Of a DNA stretch of 38,646 bases, positions 1 to 28,904 are shown piece after piece. The stretch comes from Gonapodya sp. JEL0774. Taxonomy: Eukaryota > Monoblepharomycota > Monoblepharidomycetes > Monoblepharidales > Gonapodyaceae. The DNA lies in NCBI GenBank assembly GCA_027604505.1, contig JADIIX010000164.1, positions 4,199 to 42,844 on the forward strand, written 5' to 3'. The notes under the pieces are model-generated. The model had not been told where the DNA came from, did not search any database, and saw only the letters and a list, made by a program, of their open reading frames with translations. Every line of letters begins with the position of its first letter. The first letter of the stretch is position 1. Made by a program: the position numbers and the translations under genes.

Positions 1-3000
1 TGTTGCCTGTAGTTCCCCTTGTGCGGTACCATCACCCACGCTGAATATTGTTCAAACTCTTTGACGACCAAATGCTCATTGCTGTCATGTGATGGCTTGC
101 ACAATGGGTGGCACATTCAACCTGCGGCACCTGGCCAGAATGGATGGGGCAGTCCTCAGCTGATGTGCTGTCCACAGCAGGCAAGCTCCATCATGTCAGC
201 CAACGCCAATTTTGCCACCAGAAAATTCAAGCATCCAGAGCATAAACTTCAAGTATGAGTGTGTGCAAGATCTGTAACTGTGTGATGCTGGGGCTACATG
301 ATGCAAATGTACGGTGTTGAGCCCAGCTGCTCCCATGTGTTTGTCCAGTGGAGGCTTTACGTGAACATGCCGCCCAAACTGAAAAATCACAGAATTCTTT
401 GCATCGCTCCATTTCATGATGCCGGCGAGTGTGGGTGCAAAGTTGAAATATATTTTGACCTGCGGCACCTGGTCAAAATGGAGGGTGAAGTTGCCAGGAA
501 CAAGGATGTGCTGCTTTCTACACGCACACCCAACATGCACACCCAGGCTGAATCTTGAGATTGTTACTCAAGGGCGCGAGACTGTGGCGCTCAGGGGGAG
601 CTGTTTAGCAGAGCTGCATTGGAAATTACATTCTGGCGAGCTGGTTAAAATGGATGGTGTTGAATCAAATGCCCTTTGTCCAAAACCATCACCCAGGCTG
701 AACACCGATCAAACTTTTCTTAGACTGGGAGCTCATAGCTGTGTTGTGGGCTTCTGCAAAGTGGTGTCGAGATTCAACCTGCGGCACCGGGCCCAAATGG
801 ATGTGGAAGTGGTCTGGGTGTGCTGGCCTTCTGTCACAGGGGGGACTCCAACCTGCACACCCACATGGATTCTCATTGCAACAGCTTGATGCCACCCCAT
901 AAAATATGATTGTGAGGAGAGACTGTTTGCAAAGAAGGAACTCAATTCTGACATGGCACTTGGGGCCCCACACAGGCTGGTGTTGCCTGTAGTTCCCCTT
1001 GTGCGGTACCATCACCCACGCTGAATATTGTTCAAACTCTTTGACGACCAAATGCTCATTGCTGTCATGTGATGGCTTGCACAATGGGTGGCACATTCAA
1101 CCTGCGGCACCTGGCCAGAATGGATGGGGCAGTCCTCAGCTGATGTGCTGTCCACAGCAGGCAAGCTCCATCATGTCAGCCAACGCCAATTTTGCCACCA
1201 GAAAATTCAAGCATCCAGAGCATAAACTTCAAGTATGAGTGTGTGCAAGATCTGTAACTGTGTGATGCTGGGGCTACATGATGCAAATGTACGGTGTTGA
1301 GCCCAGCTGCTCCCATGTGTTTGTCCAGTGGAGGCTTTACGTGAACATGCCGCCCAAACTGAAAAATCACAGAATTCTTTGCATCGCTCCATTTCATGAT
1401 GCCGGCGAGTGTGGGTGCAAAGTTGAAATATATTTTGACCTGCGGCACCTGGTCAAAATGGAGGGTGAAGTTGCCAGGAACAAGGATGTGCTGCTTTCTA
1501 CACGCACACCCAACATGCACACCCAGGCTGAATCTTGAGATTGTTACTCAAGGGCGCGAGACTGTGGCGCTCAGGGGGAGCTGTTTAGCAGAGCTGCATT
1601 GGAAATTACATTCTGGCGAGCTGGTTAAAATGGATGGTGTTGAATCAAATGCCCTTTGTCCAAAACCATCACCCAGGCTGAACACCGATCAAACTTTTCT
1701 TAGACTGGGAGCTCATAGCTGTGTTGTGGGCTTCTGCAAAGTGGTGTCGAGATTCAACCTGCGGCACCGGGCCCAAATGGATGTGGAAGTGGTCTGGGTG
1801 TGCTGGCCTTCTGTCACAGGGGGGACTCCAACCTGCACACCCACATGGATTCTCATTGCAACAGCTTGATGCCACCCCATAAAATATGATTGTGAGGAGA
1901 GACTGTTTGCAAAGAAGGAACTCAATTCTGACATGGCACTTGGGGCCCCACACAGGCTGGTGTTGCCTGTAGTTCCCCTTGTGCGGTACCATCACCCACG
2001 CTGAATATTGTTCAAACTCTTTGACGACCAAATGCTCATTGCTGTCATGTGATGGCTTGCACAATGGGTGGCACATTCAACCTGCGGCACCTGGCCAGAA
2101 TGGATGGGGCAGTCCTCAGCTGATGTGCTGTCCACAGCAGGCAAGCTCCATCATGTCAGCCAACGCCAATTTTGCCACCAGAAAATTCAAGCATCCAGAG
2201 CATAAACTTCAAGTATGAGTGTGTGCAAGATCTGTAACTGTGTGATGCTGGGGCTACATGATGCAAATGTACGGTGTTGAGCCCAGCTGCTCCCATGTGT
2301 TTGTCCAGTGGAGGCTTTACGTGAACATGCCGCCCAAACTGAAAAATCACAGAATTCTTTGCATCGCTCCATTTCATGATGCCGGCGAGTGTGGGTGCAA
2401 AGTTGAAATATATTTTGACCTGCGGCACCTGGTCAAAATGGAGGGTGAAGTTGCCAGGAACAAGGATGTGCTGCTTTCTACACGCACACCCAACATGCAC
2501 ACCCAGGCTGAATCTTGAGATTGTTACTCAAGGGCGCGAGACTGTGGCGCTCAGGGGGAGCTGTTTAGCAGAGCTGCATTGGAAATTACATTCTGGCGAG
2601 CTGGTTAAAATGGATGGTGTTGAATCAAATGCCCTTTGTCCAAAACCATCACCCAGGCTGAACACCGATCAAACTTTTCTTAGACTGGGAGCTCATAGCT
2701 GTGTTGTGGGCTTCTGCAAAGTGGTGTCGAGATTCAACCTGCGGCACCGGGCCCAAATGGATGTGGAAGTGGTCTGGGTGTGCTGGCCTTCTGTCACAGG
2801 GGGGACTCCAACCTGCACACCCACATGGATTCTCATTGCAACAGCTTGATGCCACCCCATAAAATATGATTGTGAGGAGAGACTGTTTGCAAAGAAGGAA
2901 CTCAATTCTGACATGGCACTTGGGGCCCCACACAGGCTGGTGTTGCCTGTAGTTCCCCTTGTGCGGTACCATCACCCACGCTGAATATTGTTCAAACTCT

Positions 3001-3328
3001 TTGACGACCAAATGCTCATTGCTGTCATGTGATGGCTTGCACAATGGGTGGCACATTCAACCTGCGGCACCTGGCCAGAATGGATGGGGCAGTCCTCAGC
3101 TGATGTGCTGTCCACAGCAGGCAAGCTCCATCATGTCAGCCAACGCCAATTTTGCCACCAGAAAATTCAAGCATCCAGAGCATAAACTTCAAGTATGAGT
3201 GTGTGCAAGATCTGTAACTGTGTGATGCTGGGGCTACATGATGCAAATGTACGGTGTTGAGCCCAGCTGCTCCCATGTGTTTGTCCAGTGGAGGCTTTAC
3301 GTGAACATGCCAGCCCAAACTGAAAAAT
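1..3328. repeat. Tandem satellite array, 980-bp higher-order unit, 3.4 copies
   Basis: The sequence starting at position 1 recurs at 981, 1961 and 2941, an exact 980-bp period. The three full copies look identical by eye, and the fourth is cut at about 3328 after a one-base insertion near 3312. Within a unit, the motif CCTGCGGCACC recurs at 121, 459 and 778. A related CTGGNNAAAATGG element recurs near 131, 298, 468, 641, 787 and 958, and ACCCAGGCTGAA-like blocks recur at 541, 691, 858 and 1014. The unit therefore appears to be a hexamer of diverged monomers of about 146-173 bp (mean ~163). The open frames inside are short, overlap on both strands and match nothing I recognise, so I call no gene. 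Satellites of this kind are usual at centromeres, subtelomeres or heterochromatin; which applies here is not known. The array reaches the window edge, so its true length is unknown. Confidence 0.95.
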
Positions 3329-8974: not shown

Positions 8975-11900
8975 ATGCCTTCCACACTTTCCAAGGTAGA
9001 TCGCACAGCGCCTTCTTCGGATGCAACTCAAAAGCCCGTCGGGGAGCTCGTTGTAGCCCTCCTTCGTGGAATTCACCTTGCTACGGCCGGTGAGGCAGTA
9101 TCCCTGGCCCGAAAGTGCAAGCTCGACGACCAATTGTGCTATGAAATCATAGCTGGTGCTGCAGGAGGGAGCTGGTGAGTGTATGATGATTTGGATTGGT
9201 CTCAGGCGATTTTCGGAGCTGGATGGAAGTGCTCGATTTTACTTGTCTGCAGGATGTACAGTACTTTTGCTCCTGGGATGATTTCGGGGCAGGGTTCTAG
9301 TGACAAGCGAACGATCCGGGACATTTTGTCTGATATGGTGGGTTTTTTGTCAAGTTTGTTTTTGTCCTCTTTATCTTTGGTTTCTGTTTGGGGAACATGA
9401 CATCATTGTTCTCTACATAGGACGACGTTCTCTCAGAAGCAAAGCGACGATCCTTCCCGCTCTTCCTTGGGAGCACAGCTCACCAGATAATCTTAAATGG
9501 TGCGATGGTCGAAAGCCTGCAATCGAAAATTATTTTCCTCTGATTTCGCTTCGATTCAAGCCACCACTGCGTGCGAGAACCCTGAAACCGAATCAGCATG
9601 CTCCATAGTCAAAGCATGGGGTCTCTCCGATGCCGAAACTGTTTTAACATCTCCCGCTCATGCCAATGGAATGCACTCCACAGTAGCTAAGACAACCGCG
9701 ACTTTACCCCGAATCGGCTTCGCCGGGCTTGGCGCCATGGGGTTGGGCATGGCCACGACTCTCGTCAAGAAAGGATACCACGTCGTGGGATTTGACGTAT
9801 GGAAGCCCTCGCAGGAAAAATTTGTTGCTGCGGGAGGACAAGGGGTTTCAATGCCTAAGGAAGCTGCCGCAGGCGCCGAAGTTTTTGTGGTGATGGTAAC
9901 GAATGCCAAGCAAGTTGACTCGGTTCTATTTGGAGAGAATGGCGCCATTGACGGTGAGCTTTGTCCTCACTCACAAATATCCGGGTTCCGGCGTAACCGT
10001 TGTGTGCACCCCAGCCCTCCCGGAAAATGCAACCATCGTCGTATGCTCCACAGTCCCAGCCGAGTACATTCGATCTTTGGATACCAGAATCACCGCCGTT
10101 GGCAAGGGACTAAAGCTCGTGGATGCTCCAGTGTCTGGTGGAATCGGACGAGCCGCAGATGGGACCCTCACAGTAATTTTCTATCAATCGCGTTTCAAAC
10201 CTTCCTTCAAGGTTCTGAGTATCTGTTTTTACATCCGTCCTAGATCATGGCCGCGGGTTCAAAGGCTGCCTTGTCTTCTGGTGACTCGGTCTTAAAGGCA
10301 TTATCTGAGAGACTCTACATCATTCCAGGCCCTTGCGGAGCCGGTTCAAGTGTTAAAATGATCAACCAGCTTCTTGCTGGTGTTCACATTGTGGCCGCTG
10401 CCGAAGCAATTGCGTTTGCAGCGAAGCTTGGTCTGAACACACGTGCGACATATGATGCCATCATGAAATCTGAGGGCGCATCGTGGATGTTTGGTCACCG
10501 AGTTCCGCATATCTTGGAGGCTGACTGGACACCGACATCGGCGCTTGACATTTTCGTCAAAGACTTGGGCATCGTGTTGGGGGAGGCAAGGATTGCTCAA
10601 TGCCCCACCTTTATGTCCGCTGTGGCGCACAATCTGTATATAATGGGTGAGTTCTATTGCCGGGTGACTAGCTGTTGGGGACTGTTTTAGATGGAAGTCC
10701 AGCAACTAATCGGGGCTTCGGCTCTTAGGTTCTGCCGCCGGCTTAGGTCGCGAAGATGACTCGGGCGTCGTTCGCGTTTGGGAACGAATGACTGGGGTTT
10801 CCACTGCATCTCCACAGCCATCGCCGTCCGTTTCAGATCCCCCGAAAGCGGTAGTTGCGGCAGCTGCACCCTTTTCTTACAGCCCCAGTGTTCCCTTCAC
10901 CAAAGTCAGTTCGGTTCCTCTGACCGATGTCCTCGCAAAACTACCCGCCGAGTACCCCGTGGACCCAACTCCAGAAATTCAAGCTCTTGTCGCTAAAGGA
11001 TCACTTCCTACTCTGGTCGTATTGGATGACGAGTGAGTCTCTTCGTACCACAATTGTAACTGGTCACTCCAACTGACTAAACACTATCTATAAAAGCCCG
11101 ACCGGTACGCAGACCTGCCATGATATCAATGTTTTGACTTCTTGGAACACGGATGAGCTCAAGGAGGAACTTGACACTGAGACGGCCGGTGGATTTTTTG
11201 TACTCACAAACTCGCGGGCGATGCTCACAGACGAGGTGAAACGCCGGCCATCGAGAGCAAGCTCTCTTTTGTTGTGCAATTTTGGTGTTATTTATTGACC
11301 ACTTTGTCACATCCTCGCACCCCGCTCTTACAATAAGGCTTACAACTTGACTCGAGAAATCGGCCAGAACCTACTCGCTGCGTCTGAAAAGTCTGCAAAA
11401 CGCTCACGAGGGGTCTCCATCGTATTAAGATCCGATTCCACTCTGCGCGGTCACGTGAGTAGCGACTCTCTTGATTCTAATATTGAGGCGGGTCTGCTTT
11501 GCCAATTCGAATATCAAAATCACGCTCACTGCCGCTCCGTCACCTATTTTCAGTTCCCCACAGAACCCGACGCCGTCGAATCCATTTTGGGTAAAGCCGA
11601 TGCCTGGATCGTGTGCCCTTTCTTCCTCGCTGGACTTCGCTACACAATCGATAATATCCACTATGTCGGCAACGACCAAGGCCTTCTGATCCCCGCCGGC
11701 GAAACTGAGTTTGCTCGCGATCGCACTTTTGGTTACCAAGCCAGTGATCTCCGAGAGTGGGTCGAAGAGAAGACTTCTGGGCGGGTGTCTCGTGACAGTG
11801 TGGTCCCCGTCTCAATCACGGACGTCCGCAAAGGCGGTCCCTCACGCGTAAAGGACATTCTCATGGGTGTACCGAAGGGAGGAGTGGTGGTAGTGAATGC

Positions 11901-12799
11901 CGCAAGCGATAGGGACATGTCCGTTTTTGCACTGGGTTTGCTGCAGGCGGAGCAAGAAGGGCGGCGTTTCATTTTGAGAACCGCGGCGTCATTTGTGTCT
12001 GCGAGGCTGGGAATACGGTCGAAACCCCCGTTAACCATGAAGGATTTGGGTGTCAAGGCCGAGGACGCGAGAAACGGAGGACTGATTGTCGTCGGATCGT
12101 AAGTAGAACTGATCATCCGACGATTATTGCAGGCGTCGACCGGTGCTCACTCTGTGCGTGCACTTCCATCCCAACAGTTACGTTCCGAAGACTACCCAGC
12201 AAGTTCAGTCTCTCCTAGACCGCCGAGGCTCCCTCCTCCACGTTGAAACCGTGTCTATTTCCACAATATCCCAATCTTCCGACGATGAGATTGCAGCCTA
12301 TGTCTCGGCCACCGCCTCTCGCTCCGCTGCTGCCATCGCCTCTGGTAAGGATGCATTGATTTTGACGGCTAGGGAACTGGTGACGGGCGCAACAGCTGAA
12401 GAAAGCCTGAGAATAAACGTGAAAGTGTCTCTGGGAATGGTGGCAATCGCGAGAGCGGTGCTGGAGAAGGTGCGGCCCCGTTACGTAATTGCAAAGGTTA
12501 GTTGGACCGTTCGGGGATTCTGTAGTAGGTGCGCATCAACACAGTGCATTTTACTCACAAACTTGTTTGCCACCCACACTTGATCTATCCAGGGCGGCAT
12601 CACCTCCTCAGACACAGCCACCAAGTCTTTGGGTATGCGTCGTGCGCGCGTTGCCGGGCAAGCAGCTCCAGGGGTGCCTCTGTGGGTTTCAGAAGATCCA
12701 CGGACAGTGAGACCTGGTGTGCCCTATGTGGTGTTTCCTGGAAATGTTGGGACCAAAGATACACTGGCGGCGATCGTAGAGAGGTGGGCGACCGTGTAA
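8975..12799 (+). CDS. 6PGDH/3-hydroxyisobutyrate dehydrogenase-like - four-carbon acid sugar kinase (DUF1537) fusion
   Basis: Twelve exons (8975-9174, 9253-9337, 9421-9499, 9561-9953, 10015-10172, 10244-10646, 10729-11032, 11097-11235, 11338-11454, 11554-12098, 12178-12496, 12593-12799) total 2949 nt, giving 982 residues. Residues ~18-121 are only the C-terminal helical domain of a 6PGDH-like enzyme (GIHLATAGEAVSLARK, EIIAGAAGGSWMY). Residues ~171-460 are a complete dehydrogenase with GFAGLGAMG, DAPVSGG and GAGSSVKMINQLLAGVH (catalytic Lys and Asn). Residues ~534-982 are the DUF1537 kinase, with VVLDDDPTGTQT, VLRSDSTLRGH, GGITSSDTATK and FPGNVG. Bacterial LtnD/OtnK-type enzymes oxidise and phosphorylate four-carbon sugar acids such as threonate, so a role in sugar-acid catabolism is inferred. 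The architecture matches the plant/fungal multidomain family, but the class II aldolase domain found at the C-terminus of the plant form is absent: the gene stops at ERWATV. The start at 8975 is the first in-frame methionine after an upstream stop. Confidence 0.92.
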
Positions 12800-15536: not shown

Positions 15537-16117
15537 TATGTATCGGAGGTGGTGTTAACTGAGAAATGTAAGGTGACATGAATGCCGGGCACCCATCTTC
15601 GAGTTTGTCACTGGGCCCAATCGTCTGCACCCATCACGCTGCGTCCCCAACTCACACTGTACCCACAAACCATCTCTAGCCCCAAATTTTATTATCAGAG
15701 ACACCACGAGAACTGGAATCCAGCACCATTTCCTGCAAGTTCCATTGAGGAAGTCTGTGCCTTTTTTTGGAATTCAGCGTTGACAGGGACTTTTCGGGAA
15801 CCAGGCGGAGGGAACTACAGAACGGAGTCTGATGAAAAGCAAAGCGCCTGCCTAGTATTATTTAGTAGATAGCGTGGAAGCGTGAGGTGAGAAGTGGTCA
15901 AGCTCCGAAAATCAAAGATCCTTCTCAAAGATTTCTACATACTACCGACATTCTATCGGGCAGCGTGCCAGTATGGGGGGGGGGGGGGGGGGGGGGGNNN
16001 NNNNNNNCACCCCCCTCCCCGCTGACCTCTGCATCTCCAAAGTTGAATGACGGCAGTGACGATGTTCCTGACAGAGGCCCTGCCTCCGTGGACCAGCCAG
16101 TGCAGGAACATACATCC
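15537..16117. other. Intergenic region with assembly gap, upstream of RS/RGG gene
   Basis: This stretch holds the 3' flank of the TMEM135-like gene and the 5' region of the RS/RGG protein. It includes a 23-base G homopolymer (15975-15997), the N gap and a C-rich stretch. An open frame continues through the gap into the downstream gene, so the true first exon of that gene may lie here. Nothing else was recognised. Confidence 0.4.
15998..16007. other. Assembly gap (10 N) at the end of a poly-G run
   Basis: Ten N bases directly follow 23 consecutive G residues and precede CACCCCCCTCCCC. The fixed size of ten suggests a placeholder of unknown true length. The homopolymer probably broke the assembly. 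Confidence 0.98.
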
Positions 16118-19100
16118 ATGGATCGCGAAGAGCACAATTCTGGTGGTGGTGAACTAGACCAAAGTCTGAAAAAGAGTGATAGGAAGTCTCAGTCGGCGAG
16201 AAATTCACGGAGACGGTCGAAATCTCGATCTCGGTCCAAGTCTCGAAGTGAACGGAGAAGTACAAGGCACGGTGAACGAGACCGCGACAGGGACAAGGAC
16301 AAGGACAGGGAGCGTGTAAAGAGAGACAGGGACCGCCGGCGAGAAAGAGATGGGGATAAGCAACGCTCGTCAACGGACAAGGACAAAGAAAACGACCGTC
16401 GGGAAAGGTCGAAGGATAGAGAACGGGGTACAGATCGTCGGGAGGCGCGAGACAGAGACCGGGATCGGGACCGAAAGCACCGTGATGGGGAGCACGTGGA
16501 AGAGGAAGCAGAAGCGGCAGTGGGCGGGAGCGAAGGCAACGTGGAGGCTGCTGTCGAATCTGGAACCCCCACCGGTTCTGAGGAGGACAAGGTTGGGGAG
16601 GTTGAGGTGATTCCTTTCCAAAAATCTGAAACGAAGCTGCCATCGACAGAACCGACTCGTGAACGTGAAACAGATCGAAATCGAACGCGACGGCGTGACA
16701 GGTCGAAGGAGAGGGACAAAGAGCGGGACCGGGATAGTCGAAGGCATCGCTCTTCCCATCGGGATTACTCCAAAGAACGAGAGTCATCCCGCCCCGATCG
16801 CATCAAGGACCGGGACTCCCCCCGGGGTGATGGTTCAAAGGATACCTCACGCCGGGAGCGGTCGAAGGACCGCGAGTCCTCTCGCCGGGAGCGGTCAAAG
16901 GACCGTGAGCCCTCTCGCCGAGACCGTGATGGCGACGGGTCTAAAGACAAGGATCGCGAGCGCCGTCGTCCTCATCGAACCCGAGATCATAATCGGGATC
17001 GGTCTGATCGCAGGACTGCTCGAGATCGGGATGACGATTCCAATCGGGATCCCTCTCCAGGTATACGTGCAGCCGATGAACCAGATGTGGATGGGCGAAA
17101 GCGTGAACGTGTGCAGAACGGCTCTGCAGACGAAGACCGCAATCGGCATGACAGAATCGACAACCATACCAGCTCCCACCATCGTGTTTCAGCCGCGACT
17201 TCGAACGCCGAGTTTGCAAATTCACGCCCCCGATCTCCCACACAGCGGAAGCGGCGTCGTTCTCGCTCTCAGTCCCAATCTCGTAACAGAACTCCCACGC
17301 CTCCACCGCCACCCCGCTCCCGCTCCCCAACTTCAACTCCCCGTCCAGTGGCACCGGGTCCTGTTGTTGGGGGCTTTCCACGGGGATGGCAACCCCCACC
17401 CCCTTCGTGGCGGGCTCGTGGTCGGGGGTGGCGAGGTGGCTTCGATCCAGGATTTCGGGGCAGTTGGAGAGGTAGATGGGACGGGCGGCCACCAATTATA
17501 CCGCCTGGAGGAAGAGGATACTGGAGAGGTCCTGTTGGATGGAGAGAAGATGAAGGGGGCCGAGATGGGAGGGTGAACTTTCCCGAGAGAGGTCGGGGCT
17601 GGGAAGAACCATGGTCAGGTGAACGGAGGGATGCTGAAGGCTATACTGAGAGCGACCAGGAGCGAGTAGAGATGCGAGAGAGGGACGGAGAGCGCATGGT
17701 CGTTAAGGAAAAGGACGTGTTGTCACAGGAATGGACGTCTTCTCAGGAAGGGAACAAAAGTCGCCACGTTAGCGGCCACGAAATGAAGGAAGACATTGGT
17801 CTCCGCCGCGTATCAAAGCTTGAGGCCCGTGAAGACCAAAATAGACCTCTCACTACTGACCCGGCTCGTGACCCCCCTAATGTCAATGCCCGGGCCAGCA
17901 GCGAACATAATGACGGTCCTTCAGTTTTACCTGCACTCTCTGATAAAGCTTTGGTACTTGACAGCGACCAGCGGGCATCTTCTACAACCACTCTCGAGGG
18001 AGCCCGACCGACGGCCAGTGCAGGAGATAAGATTCAAGCGCAAAATGGGACCGCAGCAATTGGTGGTGCTGGCATTGGTGACGTCGCGGTTCGTGGCCGT
18101 TGGACTCCACGAGGCAGAGGAGAATGGCGGGGAGGAACTTCTGGTGGATGGCGGGGTGGAGGGGGTGGTCGAGGTGGAGGCTTCGGCTACAGTGGAGATG
18201 GCGGACAATGGTCCGGTAATGGTCGCGATGGTGGTGGTGGCTATGGGGACTGGAGAGAGTGGGATGAATGGGACGATGGTAGTTGGGGAGCTGGCGGATG
18301 GGGAGGCGCTGCAGCAGTGAATCCGATGGTGGCGGGTATGGGTATGGGTGCAATGAGTGGAATGGGTGGAATGGGCGGTATGGGCGGGGGAATGGGTGTT
18401 ATGGGAGGCGTTGGTGGCATCGGCGGGATGGGCGGAATGGGTGGCATGGGTGGCATGGGGTATGGGGGTTTCGGTATGATGGGGTGGGGAAACGGCTGGG
18501 GAGGGATGGACATGAGCGGAATGAGTGGAATGAGTGGAATGAGTGGGATGAGTGGGATGAGTGGGATGAGTGGGATGAGTGGGATGAATTCTTTAGGTTC
18601 AATGGGCGTCATGGGATACGGTAATGGATGGGGTGGAACGGGCGAAGGCTTCAATCAAACTCAGTGGGGTGCAGGTTGGCAGCAAGGTCGGGGACAGCAG
18701 CCGCAGGGGGGATCGAGCTACACTCGAAGAGGGCAAAGTAATGGTCAGATTCAAGGACCTCACGAGGAAAAAGTCGGCAACGGTGCTGACGAGAAACAGA
18801 TATTGATCACGGACAAGGATTCCACCGGTAACACTGTGCTCCCCGAAACACCGGCTGCCACTCAACCACCAAATTTGAACTCTGATGACCCTGAACCGTC
18901 GCGTGTAGCGGCACGGGAACGCGACCGAGCTCGACGGATCGAGGAATCCTCGGACCCCCACGAGAGGCGAAAATCTGATCTTCCCACTATAGCTGAAGTC
19001 AAACCATCCTTGGCCGAACCAGACGATCACTCTCTAGCGGCTATTGACAACTCAGCAACCGAGTTAGAAGTGCCCGAAGTTGGCAAAGCTGATCGGGGAG

Positions 19101-19216
19101 TTTCAACGGGGGTTCCAGCGATGTTAAGCGTGTTGGAGAAGAAAAAGAGGAGCGAAAGTCGCATATTTGGGGATGAAGACATGGTGGACTATGAGGTCGG
19201 CGACGACGTAATTTGA
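16118..19216 (+). CDS. RS/RGG/GM-rich putative RNA-binding protein, function unknown
   Basis: One uninterrupted frame of 1032 codons from the first in-frame ATG after the gap; the frame is also open upstream, so the start is uncertain. Residues ~25-290 are dominated by Arg-Ser, Arg-Asp and Lys-Asp-Arg-Glu dipeptides (RSKSRSRSKSRSERRS, RRERSKDRESS repeated), typical of splicing-associated RS/RD domains. A second RS patch with a proline run lies around 375-410. Two RGG/GWRGG regions occur near 426-476 and 661-707. A Gly-Met region follows, containing eight perfect Met-Ser-Gly repeats (~799-822). The C-terminus is acidic (GDEDMVDYEVGDDVI). No RRM or zinc finger is visible. The composition suggests a nuclear RNA-binding or condensate-forming protein; I do not recognise the family. 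It converges on the next gene with 234 bp between stop codons. Confidence 0.75.
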   Translation: MDREEHNSGGGELDQSLKKSDRKSQSARNSRRRSKSRSRSKSRSERRSTRHGERDRDRDKDKDRERVKRDRDRRRERDGDKQRSSTDKDKENDRRERSKDRERGTDRREARDRDRDRDRKHRDGEHVEEEAEAAVGGSEGNVEAAVESGTPTGSEEDKVGEVEVIPFQKSETKLPSTEPTRERETDRNRTRRRDRSKERDKERDRDSRRHRSSHRDYSKERESSRPDRIKDRDSPRGDGSKDTSRRERSKDRESSRRERSKDREPSRRDRDGDGSKDKDRERRRPHRTRDHNRDRSDRRTARDRDDDSNRDPSPGIRAADEPDVDGRKRERVQNGSADEDRNRHDRIDNHTSSHHRVSAATSNAEFANSRPRSPTQRKRRRSRSQSQSRNRTPTPPPPPRSRSPTSTPRPVAPGPVVGGFPRGWQPPPPSWRARGRGWRGGFDPGFRGSWRGRWDGRPPIIPPGGRGYWRGPVGWREDEGGRDGRVNFPERGRGWEEPWSGERRDAEGYTESDQERVEMRERDGERMVVKEKDVLSQEWTSSQEGNKSRHVSGHEMKEDIGLRRVSKLEAREDQNRPLTTDPARDPPNVNARASSEHNDGPSVLPALSDKALVLDSDQRASSTTTLEGARPTASAGDKIQAQNGTAAIGGAGIGDVAVRGRWTPRGRGEWRGGTSGGWRGGGGGRGGGFGYSGDGGQWSGNGRDGGGGYGDWREWDEWDDGSWGAGGWGGAAAVNPMVAGMGMGAMSGMGGMGGMGGGMGVMGGVGGIGGMGGMGGMGGMGYGGFGMMGWGNGWGGMDMSGMSGMSGMSGMSGMSGMSGMSGMNSLGSMGVMGYGNGWGGTGEGFNQTQWGAGWQQGRGQQPQGGSSYTRRGQSNGQIQGPHEEKVGNGADEKQILITDKDSTGNTVLPETPAATQPPNLNSDDPEPSRVAARERDRARRIEESSDPHERRKSDLPTIAEVKPSLAEPDDHSLAAIDNSATELEVPEVGKADRGVSTGVPAMLSVLEKKKRSESRIFGDEDMVDYEVGDDVI
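18512..18583 (+). repeat. In-frame 9-bp tandem repeat (ATGAGTGGR)x8
   Basis: Eight head-to-tail copies of a 9-bp unit encode Met-Ser-Gly. The first three copies end in A and the last five end in G, which suggests stepwise expansion. It is preceded by looser GGNATGGG repeats encoding Gly-Gly-Met. The length is a multiple of three, so copy-number change would keep the frame. Confidence 0.95.
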
Positions 19217-19450: not shown

Positions 19451-22400
19451 TCACTGAGCGATCCCTTTATGTCCTCGAGGGATTTTCACCAATACTCCGT
19501 TTTCTCTCGCCCATTCGAGGTAGCAAGGGTCGATGACGTAGTCCGTGATCATTTTGTATACAGGAGCACCATCCGGTCGCTTCGTGCTTTCCAATTCCAG
19601 TCTGAGAAATGTGTCGTCATCTGTCTTCGATTCGAGCGGTTGAAGCTTGTGATATAATGCAGTAAGCACTTCTTGATGTGTCAAGCCTATGCATTTCTTT
19701 TGGTTAGCCAAAGGCCTCAACTCTCGTACTCGATAAGGGCCCACCATCATCCTGCTTTGCGGTAATAAGAACGGCTTGATTTAGTGCCCGTACAAAAATT
19801 CGGGTCCTTGCTTGACGTTCTGTCACCACTGAAGGGTCGAATAAGCATTTACTCATGTCGAAGTCCCTAATGGAATCCTGAAACAGAGTTACGGTTACGG
19901 TATTTAATATGCAATGCGCTTGTGATAATCATTTCAACGCACTGTTTCTGTACTGAGAGTTTCAGAAAGCTCTGGTGGTCGCTTCATGTCCACAGAACCA
20001 AGTTGAGCCCATTCCTGCATGTCCTTTGTTGCCTTCCGAAAAAACTCGATCGGGTTCTCAAAAACATTCCACGCTTCGTAAGAGGCAAGAAGCGCAGTCG
20101 GAAATACATTCATTGGCAAGGTGTGCGCTCTGCGACTCTTGTGGCGCCTGGAATTTGAATGTTTTACAGTGTCATTATTGTTTTGTCGAGTTGTGACAAC
20201 CGGTGGCAATTCCTCAGAGACAGTCAGCACTGCTTGCACCGTATTACTACCCTGCTGTGGGAATGGAACATCGCCTATTCCGGGCGGTTGGGTAGAACCT
20301 TCGTCTGTAGGGCTGGTTTGATGATCATGCATGTTTCTCTCTTCGAGTCCACGCCTTCCAATTTTGTTGACATAATCGGGAAAGTCCAGGACATCTGGTT
20401 CCAGATCGATGCTGATAAGCGGTGATTCATCCTTCATCCAATTGTCTTCACCCAAGATTTCACTTCCCTGAAGTGGTGGGTTTTGCTCCAATAGTTGTGC
20501 TCGCAACTCAAGGTCTGTCCACGAGAATGTTGTTCGATGGGGGGAAGTTAAGTCCGATGATTCTAAAGCAGTGAAGTTCTCAAAGCTTGTAATTCTTGTG
20601 ACAGGAATTGTCGAATGTTCCAGGCGCTGAACTGTCAACTTGTTCTCCGGAATTAGTTTCGAACGTTTCGCTACATCCGCAATCAGAGGCAGATCTCGTT
20701 CGTGATCCGTTAGGTCATGGGACAGTTCCACTGCTACGAAGGGTACTAGCTTCTCGCGCTCTTCAACGTCTTGATCGGTGATCAAAGCGTCGTTTCTTCC
20801 GTTTTCACGTTGGCTTGACACACCGGCATCTTCTGTTGAGCCGGAAACAGACTGTTGATCGCTACCCGCGTTTCCTCTGTTCCCACATTTGCTTGAAGAA
20901 CCGTCTTCTGTTGAGTCACGGACAGATTGGTGCTCACTTCCCACATGATGTTGCCCAGTATCACATCTTGATAATTTCTCGCAATGAAAGGGTTCACTCT
21001 GAGTTTCTGTGAGGTCATTGACCAAGAGCTGCTCTTGTTCTGCAAGCCAGCGAGCATCATCTTCTTCCACATCGTCGTCCCTCGAAGAGGAAGCAGAAGA
21101 GTCACTCAGAAAGCGAGAATCCGTTCGTGTTTGATGATTCTTGTCAGCTGCCTTCGTGGTGCTGCGGGAACTTTCGTTGGTGCCCTCTGTATCCAGTTCA
21201 ATCAAAAAGGTCACCCCGGTTGCGAATTGCGCCTGATTAACGATCTCACGTTTGATATTGACATCCAGCCCGAATTGTGACAGGGAACTGGATTAATGAT
21301 CTCAGTAATGTGGTAGTGTTCAATTTAACAAAAATCGACACTTACTGGGAGAACTCTCGCTTCGGACCGTCTCGATGCCTTGGGTGACTCTTGGTTGGGT
21401 AGGGTCCCTCGGGTCTCTCCTCGTGATTTTCGAAGACCCTGACTTTCTTACGCTTGCCTGCTGGCGCATCCTCTGTTGCATCTGGCGTTCCAATATATCG
21501 CTTGGACTGAGGGGACGACTGCGATTTCAACCGGCAATTTAAACCATCACTATTGCATGGAGGGGTGTGGTCTACTCTGCATGGTCTCCCGGCCATGCTT
21601 TCCTTCGCGAGTCTCTTTCGTCCTGTAGCCAGCTCACTTTCAATACTATGATGCCTTTGACGCTTTGGTGCTTGTTTGCTTCCTGGATTACAGTCATCAG
21701 CAATGAGAGATTCCTCCTGCGCGACAACGTCAGTCATGTTTTCCTCAATTTGAAGTTTCTCTTCTTCATATCCTGGAGATTGTCCTTGCTGTGCTGGACC
21801 GCTGTGAAATGAACTCCGATCATATGTCTTGCACAACAGATCCAGCTCTATGCAGCGACAACAGCTTTTCGAATTGACATTATTGAAAATGCAGGACGTA
21901 CGGTGTTGCCGACAACTGGTATATGTGCCACAGATCAGATCTTCTGAATTGAAGCCAGCTTGTTTGTCTCCATTGTGATGGAGAGTTTGTTCCACCACCT
22001 GAACACGAGAATCTAAAGATCGTTCATCACCTACGTGGCAGGAAAGACCAAGCTCTAAGCAACGAACGCAAGTCTTTGAATCGGGTTGGAAGTGGCATGC
22101 TCTGTGCTTTTTGCGGCAAGCGATGCATGGTTGCCTCTTACGGGACTGCGCTGCAATGTTGCGTTTGCGACTTCTGCGAGAAACTTCACCTGATGAGCCC
22201 CTGGCATAAAGCATAAACGACCATCACACTTTAGCCGTCTGAATCGGCAGTTGTCGAAACTTACAGCGTTGTATCATTTGTGACATCCAAAGCGGGCTCA
22301 GTCAAGGTAATACCAGATGTGATCGCTCCAGATAGAAACTTGCCCATACTGCTCCCTGATTTCTCCGAACACTTTAGAAACCTACTTGCTATATCAGATT

Positions 22401-25400
22401 CGATGTTCAGAGAGGCACATCGCCGGCATCCCAACGACAAGTCGTCGTATTGGCATCTTGTGTGCTTCTCTCTGCACATTGCGCAGCGGATTTTAGGTGT
22501 TGATGTGCTCATTACCGCTGCTGACAAATCTACACTGGCGCTTCCAGTTCCAGATTGTTGTTGAGGTGTTGCAGGACGAACCGGCTGTCTCTTGTTCTTG
22601 GTTACTTTGAGTCCCAGCTTCTCTCCGCCAAGTTCATTCTCGTTTCTATAAGTATCTTCTGCAGGTCGGTTTGAACTTTCCACACTCTCAGATCTAGACC
22701 TGATCTTGCTTCGAAGACCGAACTCCCCCGCCACGAAGTCACGATACAAGTTATCGCCCTCTTTCCTCACATCTGTCTTGGCAGTGGCGTCTTTCTCGCT
22801 GTTGAGATGAATATGAGAGATATCACTTTCCAGGTTCAACTCCACACTGGTGACAAAATCTTCTATTGCACGTATCGGTGTCCTTAATCCAATTGGAGGC
22901 TTAGGCGAAAGCAAGGGTAGTGAGTTGGTGTTATCTACGTTAATGGGTATGGATACGTATTGATTACGTTACTGCTCGGTGCACGAGGAGACAACCCACC
23001 GTCGCTGCTAAACACCGGCACCTCCAGGAGTGGCTCTGTAGAGTCACTTAAGTTATCGCTATCGCTTTCCTCGTCAACTGATGGTGGAATCTCCTGAGTT
23101 GATGCTTCGCTTTGTTCACAGTCGACTACAGTTCCTATTCGCGGAGCATCACTCTGGTCCGAGAACGGCGCGCAAGGGTGCTGCACAGGTGAAGACAATC
23201 CACCTGGTACTTCGTGTAAAGCATGATCTGGGTCTAGAAACTCTTCAATAAACTTGGGGACGACAAATTGTGCAGCTGGTTCTCCTTTCGGATATTCGCG
23301 AGGAATTGGGGCCAATACTGGAGACGAGGAAGAAGAGCTAACAAACTGACTTGAGGTGGTTGCTAGAAATGAGAAGTCCAACCACGCGGCACATTAAGGG
23401 ATGTCAAACGTCAAACTCAGAAAGTTGGTGAAATCTTTCAACCAACCTTCAAACTTGACAGTCATGCCTAATTGTGGCGTGGATGCGTCTTTTTCCTGGC
23501 ATTTGTCAGACACCGAGCTCCGTGGCACCTCCAAGCACGCAGTATGTTGATGGTTCTCTCTGTTTGTGCGATCTTCCCGATCTCTCGTTAAATCGGCAAG
23601 CATTGTTTGAGATTGTGTCGTGCGGGGTAAGGTACAGTGTGTGGACGCCTGGTTAAGGTCTTGTGAATGCTGGGTGGTATCTTCGGGCTCAAAATCAGAT
23701 ATGTAACTTAGGGAAACTCTCAAGGTGCGGTAAAACTGACCTGACGAGGCACTCAAACCAGCAATTTTGTTGGTATAGTCCGCTGGATGGCTACTTGAGC
23801 AGTGTTCTAATGAGAATTGATCAAGAAGCAATCGTGTGATTGGGGAGCCAACAACACCACTTTGCCGTTTGGAGCTCAAGTCATCCATGGTTGTTACTTT
23901 TCGAGGAAGTATTTCATGGAATCGATCATTTTTGCCTAATGAGAAATTCAAAAAGTGAAGGAATTAAGTCCTCCGCGAGATACGTGGATCCAAAAGAGAT
24001 GGTACCTTTTGCAGCAGTTTCGTAGCTCTCTTCATCCTGGTTCTCATCACTGCTGTAGCTATCATGATATCTGTTCATTGTGACAACGTATCTCAAGGGA
24101 GACGGTGTGTGTGGTGCGGTTGTTGGTCGGTGCGACCGTCCGAGTCGGAGTCTCGTTATATGTTGGAAACCGACAGATCCTTGGTCCGCATCAGGGTTAC
24201 TACTATCCCGGAACAGATCCCAATCATTAACGACCAGATTCTGATGTTTTGATGGTGATACCCCAGTATCGGAGATAGGCGCGGACATTGTGCGTGTGGT
24301 GAGGTTTGAATCATCCTGGGACTGATCTGGCGATTGGTTCGTCGCAGGTGAGTTTGCATCTTCGACACATCGGTGATCATTCAAAGAACGTTTAAGGTCT
24401 TTTGCGACCAGTTTTGGGACATCCTGAACTCCATCCTCCAGTCCTTTTGCCAAGCCCAAACTTCCAAATCGATTGGCAGTCCCGGCTTTAAGATCGAGAA
24501 TTCGATTGTTCTCAACGTCCAACGCACTCAAGCGTCTATCCTTTTTATGTGTTGATGATTGATTAGCGTTTTTGTTTGATGAATTTTCGAGTGGCTGCGG
24601 AGGTCCATCATCCGAAATATTGAAGGTGCCGTCTCTGACAGAAAGAATATCAGGTGTCTTCGCTGCAAGATAATCGAGGTAAGGAACTACTTTAGCCGTG
24701 AAATCCATGGTGGTGGTTGTCGATGAGGTCCTGTAGGTTGCCTGAAAGTTGTGCTTGCGGAGGTCATTCTCCTTGTTCCCGGCCCCATTTTCCTCAATCT
24801 CCATTTCAATTGTTCCGTCATTGTCTGAACCGAATAGATCCCACTCGTCTACGTCCTCGTTTGGCTGCAAGGGACTGCTATTGGTGGGAAGAAGGATGCG
24901 TTTGGAGGGAGATCCACGCGACGGTGATGAGTGAGCAGAGCTACTGGAGCTCGGCAGCTGCGAATGTAAAGATGAAGGTGATCTAAGTCGATCGCCTTTG
25001 ATTTGCCGATACGAGGGTGATTGATCCAACTTTTCGAGGTTTGACGAGTTACGCCCACGTGTAGAAGACGGTGAATCCAACCTATTGCGAGAGAGAGACA
25101 ATGCTATCTCTTTTAAAGGCGACGATGAAGTGAATTCTGTGCTACCGTTGGCGCAGGTTGGCGGCGTATGGATGGTTCCCACGTTTGATTTTGGAAGGTT
25201 TGAGGTGCTAGCTCCAGATTTTACATCATGCGCAGTCGATTGTCGATGTTTGGATTTTTTGTTCCCCAGCGAAGATGATCCACCAAGGTCGAGTACTTGG
25301 TATTTAGACTTCGAAGAGAAGGGGGGGGCGATATGGAGAAACTTGTTAACCGAGACAGTGACGAGTGATCAACACTTACTGTGAAATGTTCACCCGACTC

Positions 25401-26362
25401 GACGGGCCAATTAGCCTTACTAGTTTTACGAGCTCCTTTTGATTTTGTGGGAACTCCCTTTGCGGCGCATGGATCTTGAACCTGAGGAACAGGCTTACTC
25501 TCGAACGTTCGCGACGGCTTTAGCGTTTTGTGTGCGCTATCTGCGAAGATATCCCACTCCTCAAAGTCCGTCTGATCTAGTTGATCCACTTCGTGTGATG
25601 TCAAGGGTCCACGGGAGTGATGAGAGTTGTCGGAGGTCGGCCGGAGGACGGGTTTCCTGCCAACATTATTCGATGTGGAAGCCCGATCAGCTCGTTGCAG
25701 AGCAGCATCTCCACCTCCTAGTAGAGAATTGTTTTTGATTATGTTTGCTGAGGTTGCGCCTTTTGGAGGGTGGAGAGGCAATTCGTAAAGATGTGAATGC
25801 GGAAATCATGTTTCGATTCTCTCAGATATCCCTCCAGAAAGCCGGATCAGGAGAGAAACACATAGATAAGTTAACGCACCATGCATTTCCTGAGCGACAA
25901 GTTGGATTGAGCGGGTCTCGTTGCCAATCTCCACGGGTCCCAGTTGTGTTCCATCCCTTTCAACCGGCTTCTGCGAGCTGGGACGCCCAGAATCACAGCT
26001 TGACTCCGTTTCTCTATGCAATACATAGCTGGAATTCCATCTTTGCGTCCGCTGTGCGGAGGTGAAGTCTCTCCCTTCGTTGCCGCCATTTCGCTCCGAC
26101 GAACGCACTCCAAGCATTGATCCAGGCTTGGGCTCAAGCAGCTTAGAGTCTGCTCCACCTTTGGAATGTCCCCTTTTATCTACCATTTTTGGGTCGAGTT
26201 GGTGGCGACTGGTTCAGTGTGCGAAGATTTGTGAAGCAAAGCAGTTGGGTCAGTTGGGGCAGCCAACCAAGTGCATGGACTTTCTTGCATCTTGCACTCC
26301 ATCCGATTGAAATAATCGCTTCCTGTGCCTAAGGACAAGAGTGCTTCTTCACATAGTAACAT
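19451..26362 (-). CDS. Large protein with three zinc-cluster-like motifs, function unknown
   Basis: Eleven exons, read right to left (26362-26268, 26208-25880, 25759-25380, 25308-24006, 23935-23447, 23362-22968, 22899-22265, 22200-21346, 21287-19943, 19877-19745, 19671-19451), total 6180 nt, giving 2059 residues. All junctions are GT-AG and every phase closes. Most of the protein is Ser/Asp/Glu-rich and probably disordered. Three acidic W-D-[LI]-F motifs lie at Trp210, Trp424 and Trp631. The middle carries Zn2Cys6-like motifs at ~1136-1165 (CAMCREKHTRC...CRRC, sixth Cys replaced by Ser), 1234-1263 (a complete C-x2-C-x6-C-x8-C-x2-C-x6-C) and ~1299-1332 (first Cys displaced). A basic stretch (RRSRKRNIAAQSRKRQ) precedes the complete one. 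The C-terminal ~120 residues look folded (TALYHKLQPLES, YKMITDYVIDPCYLEWARENG) but are not recognised. A role in transcription is inferred from the zinc cluster only. The start at 26362 is the first ATG after an in-frame stop. Confidence 0.8.
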
Positions 26363-26611: not shown

Positions 26612-28904
26612 ATGTCATCAGACTCGGACGATCCTTCTCATTCCGGCGCAGAAACAGCGGACTCCAATTTCGAGTTGTCTCTTACTTCCCAAATCAAAGA
26701 CGAATCCTCTGCCCCTTCCATCCGCAAACCAAGGGGCCGTCCAGCTGCTCTCCTCGCTGCCGGATCATCGAAAAAATCGAAGCGTGTATCATCTTCTTCC
26801 TCTGGCAAGAAGCGTGTTCACCAGAAAGTCAGAGTCGCCTGCTCGTACTGCCAACAGAGTCATCTCACCTGCGACGACGGTGAGCCATCGTGAAATTCGT
26901 TAGTGGCATGGATTCTAATTGCGGTTTGATGCCGCTACCTCAACTGCCCAACTTCCTGCTGTTCAGAACGACCGTGTTCCCGGTGTGTCAAGAGAGGATT
27001 TCCTGAACTGTGTGTTGACGGAAGCCGCAAGCGAGCCAAGTATCTTTCTGACGACGGTGAGTTTCTTGATTGTCTTCTTAGTATCATGAGCACATGGGAA
27101 CGGGCTTCACGGGACTTCAGTTCGCCTGTCCATTACTGACTGTGGATAAACTCATCGAGAGATTGGAACAGTAGTGTGGATGTTTTGAGACCGGTTGTAG
27201 ATGCGTCCTCGGAGTGCACTAGGAGAGTAGGTGAAGGAATTGGAAGACGCGCCCTTTTGGTGGTGGAACACCCTCGCTCTTTGTTGGTTCATAATTGACT
27301 CATCACGACTGAAACGATATACGCTTGTTGGCAGAAAGGTTCGCTTCTACTCCTGCTCCGTCGAACGCCTCAACACCGTCACACACCAACACCCCACCTC
27401 CTTCCTCCTTGTCCAACCTAATCATGCAGTCGGCCCACCAACCACAAACTTCTTCCGCTCCCGATACTCATACTCATCTCAATTCCAATTTTCCCCTCGG
27501 GAACCAACTCGCAAATCTCTCTTTACCCCTCCAGCTCCCCAACCAACAGTCATTCCCTCTCCAGCTCCAGCCGTACCCATTTGGATCGGAGGCGGCGAAT
27601 CTTGAATTCTCCATATTATCGAATATGCTCGCTCAGAGCGCGGCAATGGACGTCGGGACGGGACAGAATGCTGGTGCTGGTCAACCAACAGGGTCCCAAT
27701 TTAGCCTCGCGGACATGTTTGGGACACAACAAAGTTCCCACGCAACTGGAGCTGCTGTACCAACACCCGCGAATCAGCAGTCCGGTCGGAATCGACCTAT
27801 GCGGCGTTCCAATACCGGTGGCTCTTCAACCAATACGAGCGGCAGCGCTGTAGCAAACACGAAGTCCCACGGACATCACGGACACGGCCACGGCCACGGA
27901 CATCATGGGCACCACCAAGTCAATGGAGTTTATGTGAAAGTAACGAAGCCATATGACTACCGAGAAGGTTTCCATTATTTGGTGAAATATGTGAAGGAGA
28001 GGTGTGTTTCCATCGCAAAACGCTTCGCGACATGAAGGTTCTGAACCACCTTGGTGTCGCCATCGATTGGTTCGGTAGGATGGAAAAAACAGACATTATG
28101 CGAATATGGTGAGTTTCAAGGGTAGAGTCGTCTGGCTCTTATGATTCAGGCGGATATCTCAACAATGTCTAATAAATCACCAAAACATCAACGAATCGCA
28201 GTCGCGCTCTCGCACATTTCCGTCCTTCTTTTATGGGTGTGTACAATTGCAGAGCGGCGGACCTCGGCTCTACTCAAGTTATTGATCCAAACCTGCCCCC
28301 TCGAAACAGCCCAAATAATGAATCTCTCGGAGGAGGATCTCATCTTCATGGAACAATGCTTTCAGCGAACACTGCAGGAGTTCGACAAGCTCATAAATTT
28401 CTCCGGCACCCCTACGGTTGTATGGCGAAGAACAGGAGAGATTGCACTTGTAGGTGTTGCGGGGATTCATTTGGGTTATCAGAGTTGAAATCTCAACTGG
28501 CTCGCTGCTCTCTGCCGATGTAGGTTGGAAAGGAATTCTGCCTCTTGACACAGTGGACGAGAGATCAGTTGCTTGGCAAGAAAACATACATTTACGAGGT
28601 TCGTTGGTCCCCACCCCACCACCGACTGTCCCGAAGGAATAAAATTTACACCCCCCTTTTGTGCCAGCTTATGGACACGTCATCCGCTGTCTCCTACTGG
28701 GAGCTCTTTTCTATGATCGCCTTTGACAACTCGCAACAGTCAGTAATGACCACGTGCACTCTGGTGGGACCGCAGGGGCGCAAAGTGCCGTGTGCGTTTT
28801 GCTTCACCATCAAGCGTGACATCTTTGAAGTACCACTATGTGTGGTTGGCAACTTTTTGCCACTCTTTGACCGGGGACCTGGTGCTGGTGCAGCAGCACA
28901 CTAA
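26612..28904 (+). CDS. ERT1: Zn2Cys6/PAS transcription factor, ERT1/AcuK family
   Basis: Eight exons (26612-26879, 26967-27056, 27335-28001, 28079-28108, 28202-28236, 28310-28449, 28524-28598, 28668-28904) total 1542 nt, giving 513 residues. A zinc cluster at residues 77-105 reads C-x2-C-x6-C-x5-C-x2-C-x8-C ([26 protein letters not shown]), the spacing of ERT1/AcuK/Rds2-type regulators. An AT-hook-like KPRGRP precedes it (~39-44). The middle is low-complexity with a His-Gly run (~298-314). The C-terminal half is the family's PAS-containing region: [53 protein letters not shown], and [18 protein letters not shown]. Family members activate gluconeogenic and alternative carbon genes in the nucleus. 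The second intron (278 bp) is longer than the others. It is divergent from the 2059-residue gene and convergent with YAK1. Confidence 0.93.

Follow-up and report, generated by a model that had tools for sequence, protein, structure and literature searches.

The stretch of DNA analysed here (the window, 38,646 nucleotides) comes from Gonapodya sp. JEL0774 and covers positions 4199-42844 of contig JADIIX010000164.1, in a 25.0-Mb genome assembly of 381 contigs. On its minus strand, at 26186-19451, lies a long gene, hereafter the triple-cluster gene, which as modelled from reading frames and splice signals has 10 exons and encodes 2012 residues, with nine introns that are all GT-AG and match in phase. 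Three related cysteine clusters, M1, M2 and M3, sit in two adjacent exons of this one open gene model. The original prediction, made from the sequence letters, had put the gene at 11 exons and 2059 residues with motifs at about 1136, 1234 and 1299; in our model these become 10 exons, 2012 residues and motif starts at 1084, 1182 and 1247. The exon 5/6 junction is ambiguous, with other donors and acceptors possible, so that residue numbers may shift by a few positions at most. The features of the gene are given below, exons being placed by frames and splice signals unless stated otherwise.

19451..26186, minus strand: triple-cluster gene, 10-exon model, ATG at 26186, stop at 19453-19451
25880..26186, minus strand: exon 1
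25380..25717, minus strand: exon 2
24006..25308, minus strand: exon 3
23447..23935, minus strand: exon 4
23000..23362, minus strand: exon 5, 3' end uncertain
22265..22934, minus strand: exon 6, carries M1, 5' end uncertain (5' part open, top codon score among six frames)
21346..22200, minus strand: exon 7, carries M2 and M3
19943..21287, minus strand: exon 8
19745..19877, minus strand: exon 9
19451..19686, minus strand: exon 10, the final coding exon
22417..22485, minus strand: M1, residues 1084-1106, cysteines C1-C5, canonical C6 missing (pattern; Pfam Zn_clus on the isolated peptide)
22038..22127, minus strand: M2, residues 1182-1211, complete cluster (Pfam Zn_clus on the isolated peptide; structure model and Foldseek)
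21831..21932, minus strand: M3, residues 1247-1280, cysteines C2-C6 plus a displaced upstream cysteine (no Pfam match; alignment to M2)

Membership in the Zn2Cys6 class was judged by the pattern C-x2-C-x6-C-x5-12-C-x2-C-x6-8-C, as in PMC7295025. The pattern is satisfied by M2 only, whose sequence CIACRKKHRACHFQPDSKTCVRCLELGLSC has the spacing C-x2-C-x6-C-x8-C-x2-C-x6-C and holds, alone among the three motifs, all six cysteines, so the second motif is a complete Zn2Cys6 cluster as had been proposed; M1 (CAMCREKHTRCQYDDLSLGCRRC) is without C6 and M3 (CGTYTSCRQHRTSCIFNNVNSKSCCRCIELDLLC) without C1 in place. Three related cysteine clusters in one gene model is what stands of the original claim of three zinc-cluster motifs in one protein, with M2 intact and M1 and M3 as diverged copies. 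The clusters are not due to chance. Neither the full pattern nor either five-cysteine pattern arose when the whole protein was shuffled 5000 times, and in 20000 shuffles of the cysteine-rich stretch 1070-1420 the six-cysteine pattern came up once, C1-C5 27 times and C2-C6 91 times. The curated cut-off of Pfam Zn_clus (PF00172) is 21 bits, and as isolated peptides M2 (24.7 bits) and M1 (22.5 bits) both lie above it while the Pfam scan gave no match for M3; M2 is also above it in the genome-wide Zn_clus scan (23.1 bits), and the exon-level open reading frames are under it (17.8 and 18.9 bits). The outcome named beforehand as telling against three clusters, flanking motifs devoid of Zn_clus similarity, is therefore found for M3 under Pfam and not for M1, and M3 is strongly related to M2 when the two are compared directly. 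A custom profile of 12 other clusters, 11 of the same genome and that of the neighbouring gene, gives 18.3, 18.1 and 6.4 bits to short pieces with M1, M2 and M3, scores reached by 0, 0 and 3 of 1000 full shuffles; with the cysteines fixed they are reached by 0/1000 for M1 and 3/1000 for M2, and within the full-length protein M1 and M2 score 6.5 and 11.1 bits. On sequence grounds, membership in the Zn2Cys6 class rests on M2, and M1 and M3 are diverged copies rather than proven members.

Two further candidates were not retained. Residues 1364-1379 (PCRVDHTPPCNSDGLNC) were rejected as a fourth motif: their similarity to M2 is reached by 257/2000 cysteine-fixed and 196/2000 full shuffles, and they likewise have no Pfam match and only 2.9 bits against the profile of other clusters. 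A splice restoring the sixth cysteine of M1 was looked for by eye: the first GT past codon 1106 falls in codon 1117, and no acceptor is apparent.

As for the origin of the array, the alignment score of M2 with M3 is 76, reached by none of 2000 cysteine-fixed shuffles, and that of M1 with M2 is 66, reached by 8/2000. Common to M2 and M3 is the series SK-x-C-x-RC-x-EL-x-L-x-C, and this likeness at non-cysteine positions suggests some retained constraint. M2 and M3 are clearly duplicates of each other, and the simplest reading is that the array arose through internal duplication. A protein search of the 25.0-Mb genome found no further copy of the array or of the C-terminal region besides the gene itself, and the 84 bases around M1 have no second copy in the genome. 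Moreover, 35 loci were checked for multiple clusters, of which 30 came from Zn_clus scans (one being the triple-cluster gene) and five from searches with the triple-cluster gene. The cluster pattern matched 14 of them: three belong to the triple-cluster gene with two matches each, and the 11 others have one each. The remaining 21 loci are without a pattern match, two of them because they hold other parts of the triple-cluster gene or because introns or spacing break the cluster, so the absence of other multi-cluster genes is only weakly tested. Thirteen of the 43 Zn_clus matches of the genome scan lie outside the 35 loci, and three of these thirteen, on contig C37, were read afterwards; the match pairs on C37, C71 and C132, spaced 3-5 kb, appear to be distinct genes with one cluster each. 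At the C37 locus, L036 (G000:C37:93500-101500), a pair of open frames separated by about 5 kb have near-alike zinc-cluster starts (YRPRLRPTCDGCVKRK), and in the first of them the C3-C4 loop reads long or contains an unspliced intron.

The position of M1 within the chain depends on the gene model, which would be an artefact if two genes had been joined, the second beginning at M1075, whose ATG is in frame and precedes M1 by nine codons, and so giving M1 the usual N-terminal place. Such an ATG does exist, exon 5 may instead read on to a stop at 22937-22935, and over the 3' portion of exon 6 the codon score discriminates weakly, giving 0.049 in frame and 0.032 to an open frame of the opposite strand. 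However, the 5' part of exon 6 ahead of the ATG (22892-22516) is stop-free in the M1 frame, which is the best-scoring one with 0.099 against -0.167 to -0.002 in the five other frames; for comparison, the range is 0.031-0.166 for exons 1, 5, the 3' part of 6 and 7-10, each read in its own frame, and -0.188 to 0.012 for the intron control. This score was trained on a set that contains exons 2-4, 7 and 8 of the triple-cluster gene itself; with an independent set from other window genes the 5' part falls to 0.024, yet it is still the top of the three same-strand frames. Moreover, M1075 is the sole methionine between the beginning of exon 5 and M1, so the coding stretch ahead of it would need splicing to something upstream, and M2 and M3 share one exon regardless. 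Because the stretch ahead of M1 is open and coding-like and M1075 is its sole methionine, M1 is very probably mid-protein, and we regard a joining of two genes as very unlikely.

The loops and the CRxxH core were compared with Zn_clus matches at 29 other loci of the genome, 19 of which are readable by pattern, while introns or long loops make 10 unreadable. The core, claimed for all three motifs, is present in M1 and M2, while M3 reads CRQHR; the CRxxH histidine occupies the same position in 7 of the 19 readable clusters, and being so common it marks no special family. Between C3 and C4, Asp together with Pro is a usual though not universal feature of Zn2Cys6 clusters: all 19 readable ones have Pro within the last three loop positions before C4, and 17 of them have Asp directly after C3. 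The loops of M1, M2 and M3 measure 8, 8 and 9 residues, lengths also in print for CCM_01975 and CCG_00047 (PMC6471507), and M2 has a mid-loop Pro and Asp, which softens the contrast with the other clusters. What is unusual in the array is thus the mid-protein position, the threefold copying, and the absence in all three motifs of Pro before C4 and Asp after C3. Among the 10 unreadable clusters there are two Zn_clus matches with long loops that are without the usual Pro just before C4, L015 (G000:C17) with no Pro in its loop and L035 (G000:C151) with a mid-loop Pro only. Since these too are without it, relaxed loops may extend beyond the triple-cluster gene.

For M2, a zinc-cluster fold is predicted: in a Foldseek comparison of the model with the PDB, all 24 rows are Zn2Cys6 DNA-binding domains, every one at an E of at least 0.13, and the profile matches are Zn2Cys6 in 3/3 cases. 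Elsewhere in the protein, a motif search of the sequence found acidic WD[IL]F motifs at three places, all within its N-terminal third; among 20000 shuffles of the protein there was none with at least two.

25545..25556, minus strand: acidic WDIF motif 1, residue 157
24832..24843, minus strand: acidic WDLF motif 2, residue 371
24211..24222, minus strand: acidic WDLF motif 3, residue 578

We take these motifs to resemble acidic-aromatic activation segments. Basic runs, which could include nuclear signals, are found at residues 470, 1165-1170, 1406-1411 and 1823, that at 1165-1170 falling between M1 and M2. For the C-terminal stretch 1816-2012 the Pfam scan of the full-length protein gave no family, and there is no confident PDB relative, the best match being a carbohydrate-binding module at E 0.062. 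The suggestion that the protein derives from a regulator and carries its clusters mid-chain is supported by the M2 fold prediction, the basic runs, the WD[IL]F motifs and the coding stretch before M1.

Zinc binding, DNA binding, nuclear location and activation are what we infer from these features, and the likeliest reading, with about even chances, is that the protein is a long nuclear DNA-binding regulator of the Zn2Cys6 type with the internal duplicated array as its reader. If so, M2 would fold round two zinc ions and touch a short DNA site via the basic helix past its second cysteine (CRKKHRAC). M1 and M3, as diverged copies, would have weaker or altered zinc binding, and may give weak extra contacts to DNA or partners, or may have drifted, while recruitment of the transcription machinery would fall to the acidic WD[IL]F motifs. 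Multi-site DNA binding by the array, which had also been suggested, is possible; two of the three copies are without one canonical zinc ligand in place.

A number of observations weigh against the regulator reading. At the C6 place of M1 there is no cysteine and the next one follows 15 residues on, and at the C1 place of M3 there is a Tyr, with a cysteine three residues further upstream. On the whole 2012-residue protein Zn_clus gives 14.0 bits, under the cut-off; M3 gets weak support from the custom profile, its score being reached by 11/1000 cysteine-fixed shuffles and falling to -0.1 bits within the full-length protein; and the M1-M3 alignment score is a modest 48, reached by 23/2000 cysteine-fixed shuffles. 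The structure model covers M2 alone, M1 and M3 serving as its alignment; the exon 7 piece with M2 and M3, folded without alignment, gives a predicted local distance difference test score of 43, which is meaningless, and the Foldseek and VIA-align values are weak because the domain is tiny. That the protein is probably largely unstructured and nuclear is judged from composition only. None of the three motifs has Asp directly after C3 or Pro among the final three residues of the loop, and a Pfam scan of the whole model found neither PF04082 (Fungal_trans) nor another family. Moreover, in a protein database that includes Gonapodya and many chytrids, no homologue at E<=10 was found for residues 1000-2012 (7982 candidates of 1106-3521 residues, chosen by shared words) or for the exon-7 open reading frame (242 candidates of 161-513 residues). 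This null is weak, because an orthologue modelled shorter or longer, or crowded out by low-complexity words, would escape; within such limited searches, the remark that no such family is recognised still holds.

Several of these points are also what would be expected if the clusters no longer read DNA and instead served for docking, stabilised by zinc, within a large nuclear scaffold or co-regulator derived from a regulator: the clusters are internal in a protein of 2012 residues, M1 and M3 have each lost a canonical ligand, the usual loop Asp and Pro are gone from all three, no PF04082 was found, and neither a family nor a confident PDB relative could be assigned to the C-terminal stretch. 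This we hold to be somewhat unlikely, considering that M2 keeps all six cysteines with a strongly basic C2-C3 segment, that the stretch separating M1 from M2 has a basic run, and that the fold matches are all DNA-binding domains, though a common fold proves no function. It is also conceivable that M2 alone works, as in an ordinary single-cluster regulator, with M1 and M3 as functionless decaying duplicates. One canonical cysteine is indeed missing from each flanking copy, and M3 finds no match in Pfam and scores weakly with the profile of other clusters; yet the M1 peptide is still above the Zn_clus cut-off and the M2-M3 likeness reaches non-cysteine positions, which makes complete decay rather improbable. 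As to some other cysteine-rich zinc module in place of Zn2Cys6, the Pfam hits zinc_ribbon_6 (14.1 bits, cut-off 27) and Defensin_5 (13.2 bits, cut-off 25) are weak and lie far under their cut-offs, and with all fold and profile matches being Zn2Cys6 we give this hardly any credence.

Compared with known systems, the protein is like Zn2Cys6 regulators (PF00172; Gal4, Ppr1, Lac9, Put3, Leu3, Hap1) in the six-cysteine spacing, the basic C2-C3 residues and the predicted fold of M2, and unlike them in its three mid-protein copies in 2012 residues, whose loops lack Asp after C3 and Pro before C4. It also differs from those regulators that bear PF04082; in Pleurotus, for example, 43 of 66 zinc-cluster proteins have that family and many members are without it, and the cluster lies in the first third in 59/66 proteins and in the middle in 3 (PMC7295025). 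Pho7 of fission yeast has a DNA-binding domain that is not N-terminal and a site without internal symmetry, binding as a monomer being one of two proposals for it, and AlcR of Aspergillus is cited as a monomeric binder (PMC5559640). Both are described with one cluster per protein, in contrast to the triple-cluster protein, and Pho7 shows that a zinc cluster lying inside the chain can function as a reader, perhaps a monomeric one. More than one Zn2Cys6 cluster per polypeptide is likewise in print, for CCG_02279 and CCM_00582 (PMC6471507), PoZCP55 of Pleurotus (PMC7295025) and an Alternaria factor that is mentioned (PMC10305253); these have two clusters, not three, in contexts such as the DUF3468 class, septin domains or a transmembrane domain. 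Among the matches listed from the open-licence PMC literature there is no protein with three Zn2Cys6 clusters, the phrase "three Zn2Cys6" referring, where it occurs there, to three separate factors.

The gene lies head-to-head with another zinc-cluster gene.

26612-28904, plus strand: ERT1/AcuK-like PAS zinc-cluster regulator

The best relative of this neighbour is from Gonapodya prolifera JEL478, the two being 73% identical across 98% of the part searched. The neighbour is like the triple array in having a His four places past C2 (CQQSHLTC, by our own splice), and unlike it in its single near-N-terminal cluster, its Pro before C4 and its good conservation across chytrids; we found no evidence that the array descends from it. 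Other features of the window are as follows. A tandem 980-bp unit occurs in four copies from 1, 981, 1961 and 2941 (window 1-3240 and on), a 300-nt reference stretch being identical in 4/4, and the array may continue left of the window. At 9497-12102 on the plus strand there are domains like those of 6-phosphogluconate/3-hydroxyisobutyrate dehydrogenases (NAD_binding_2, NAD_binding_11), followed by an SBD_N domain, which perhaps form one multidomain gene. At 15869-19216, also on the plus strand, an open frame of 1115 codons is rich in RS/RD and GM/MSG repeats and has an N run near its start and 9-bp tandem repeats, and the Pfam scan found no family in it.

Zinc-cluster factors are a hallmark of fungi, and their early evolution is thinly sampled. 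Most bear a single cluster within the first third of the chain. Textbook members pair through dimerisation, and by a bold reading of the array, which we think improbable, three clusters in one chain replace dimerisation by reading several adjacent half-sites, with the relaxed, Pro/Asp-less cluster as a distinct subclass of an early-diverging Gonapodya-like lineage. The share of zinc-cluster proteins among transcription factors is about 10% in chytrids and zygomycetes vs about 40% in Pezizomycotina (PMC5415576). Should the flanking copies be dead, the array would be a minor curiosity; a one-chain array with relaxed loops would be another route to specificity and would show how the zinc-cluster module tolerates the loss of ligands.

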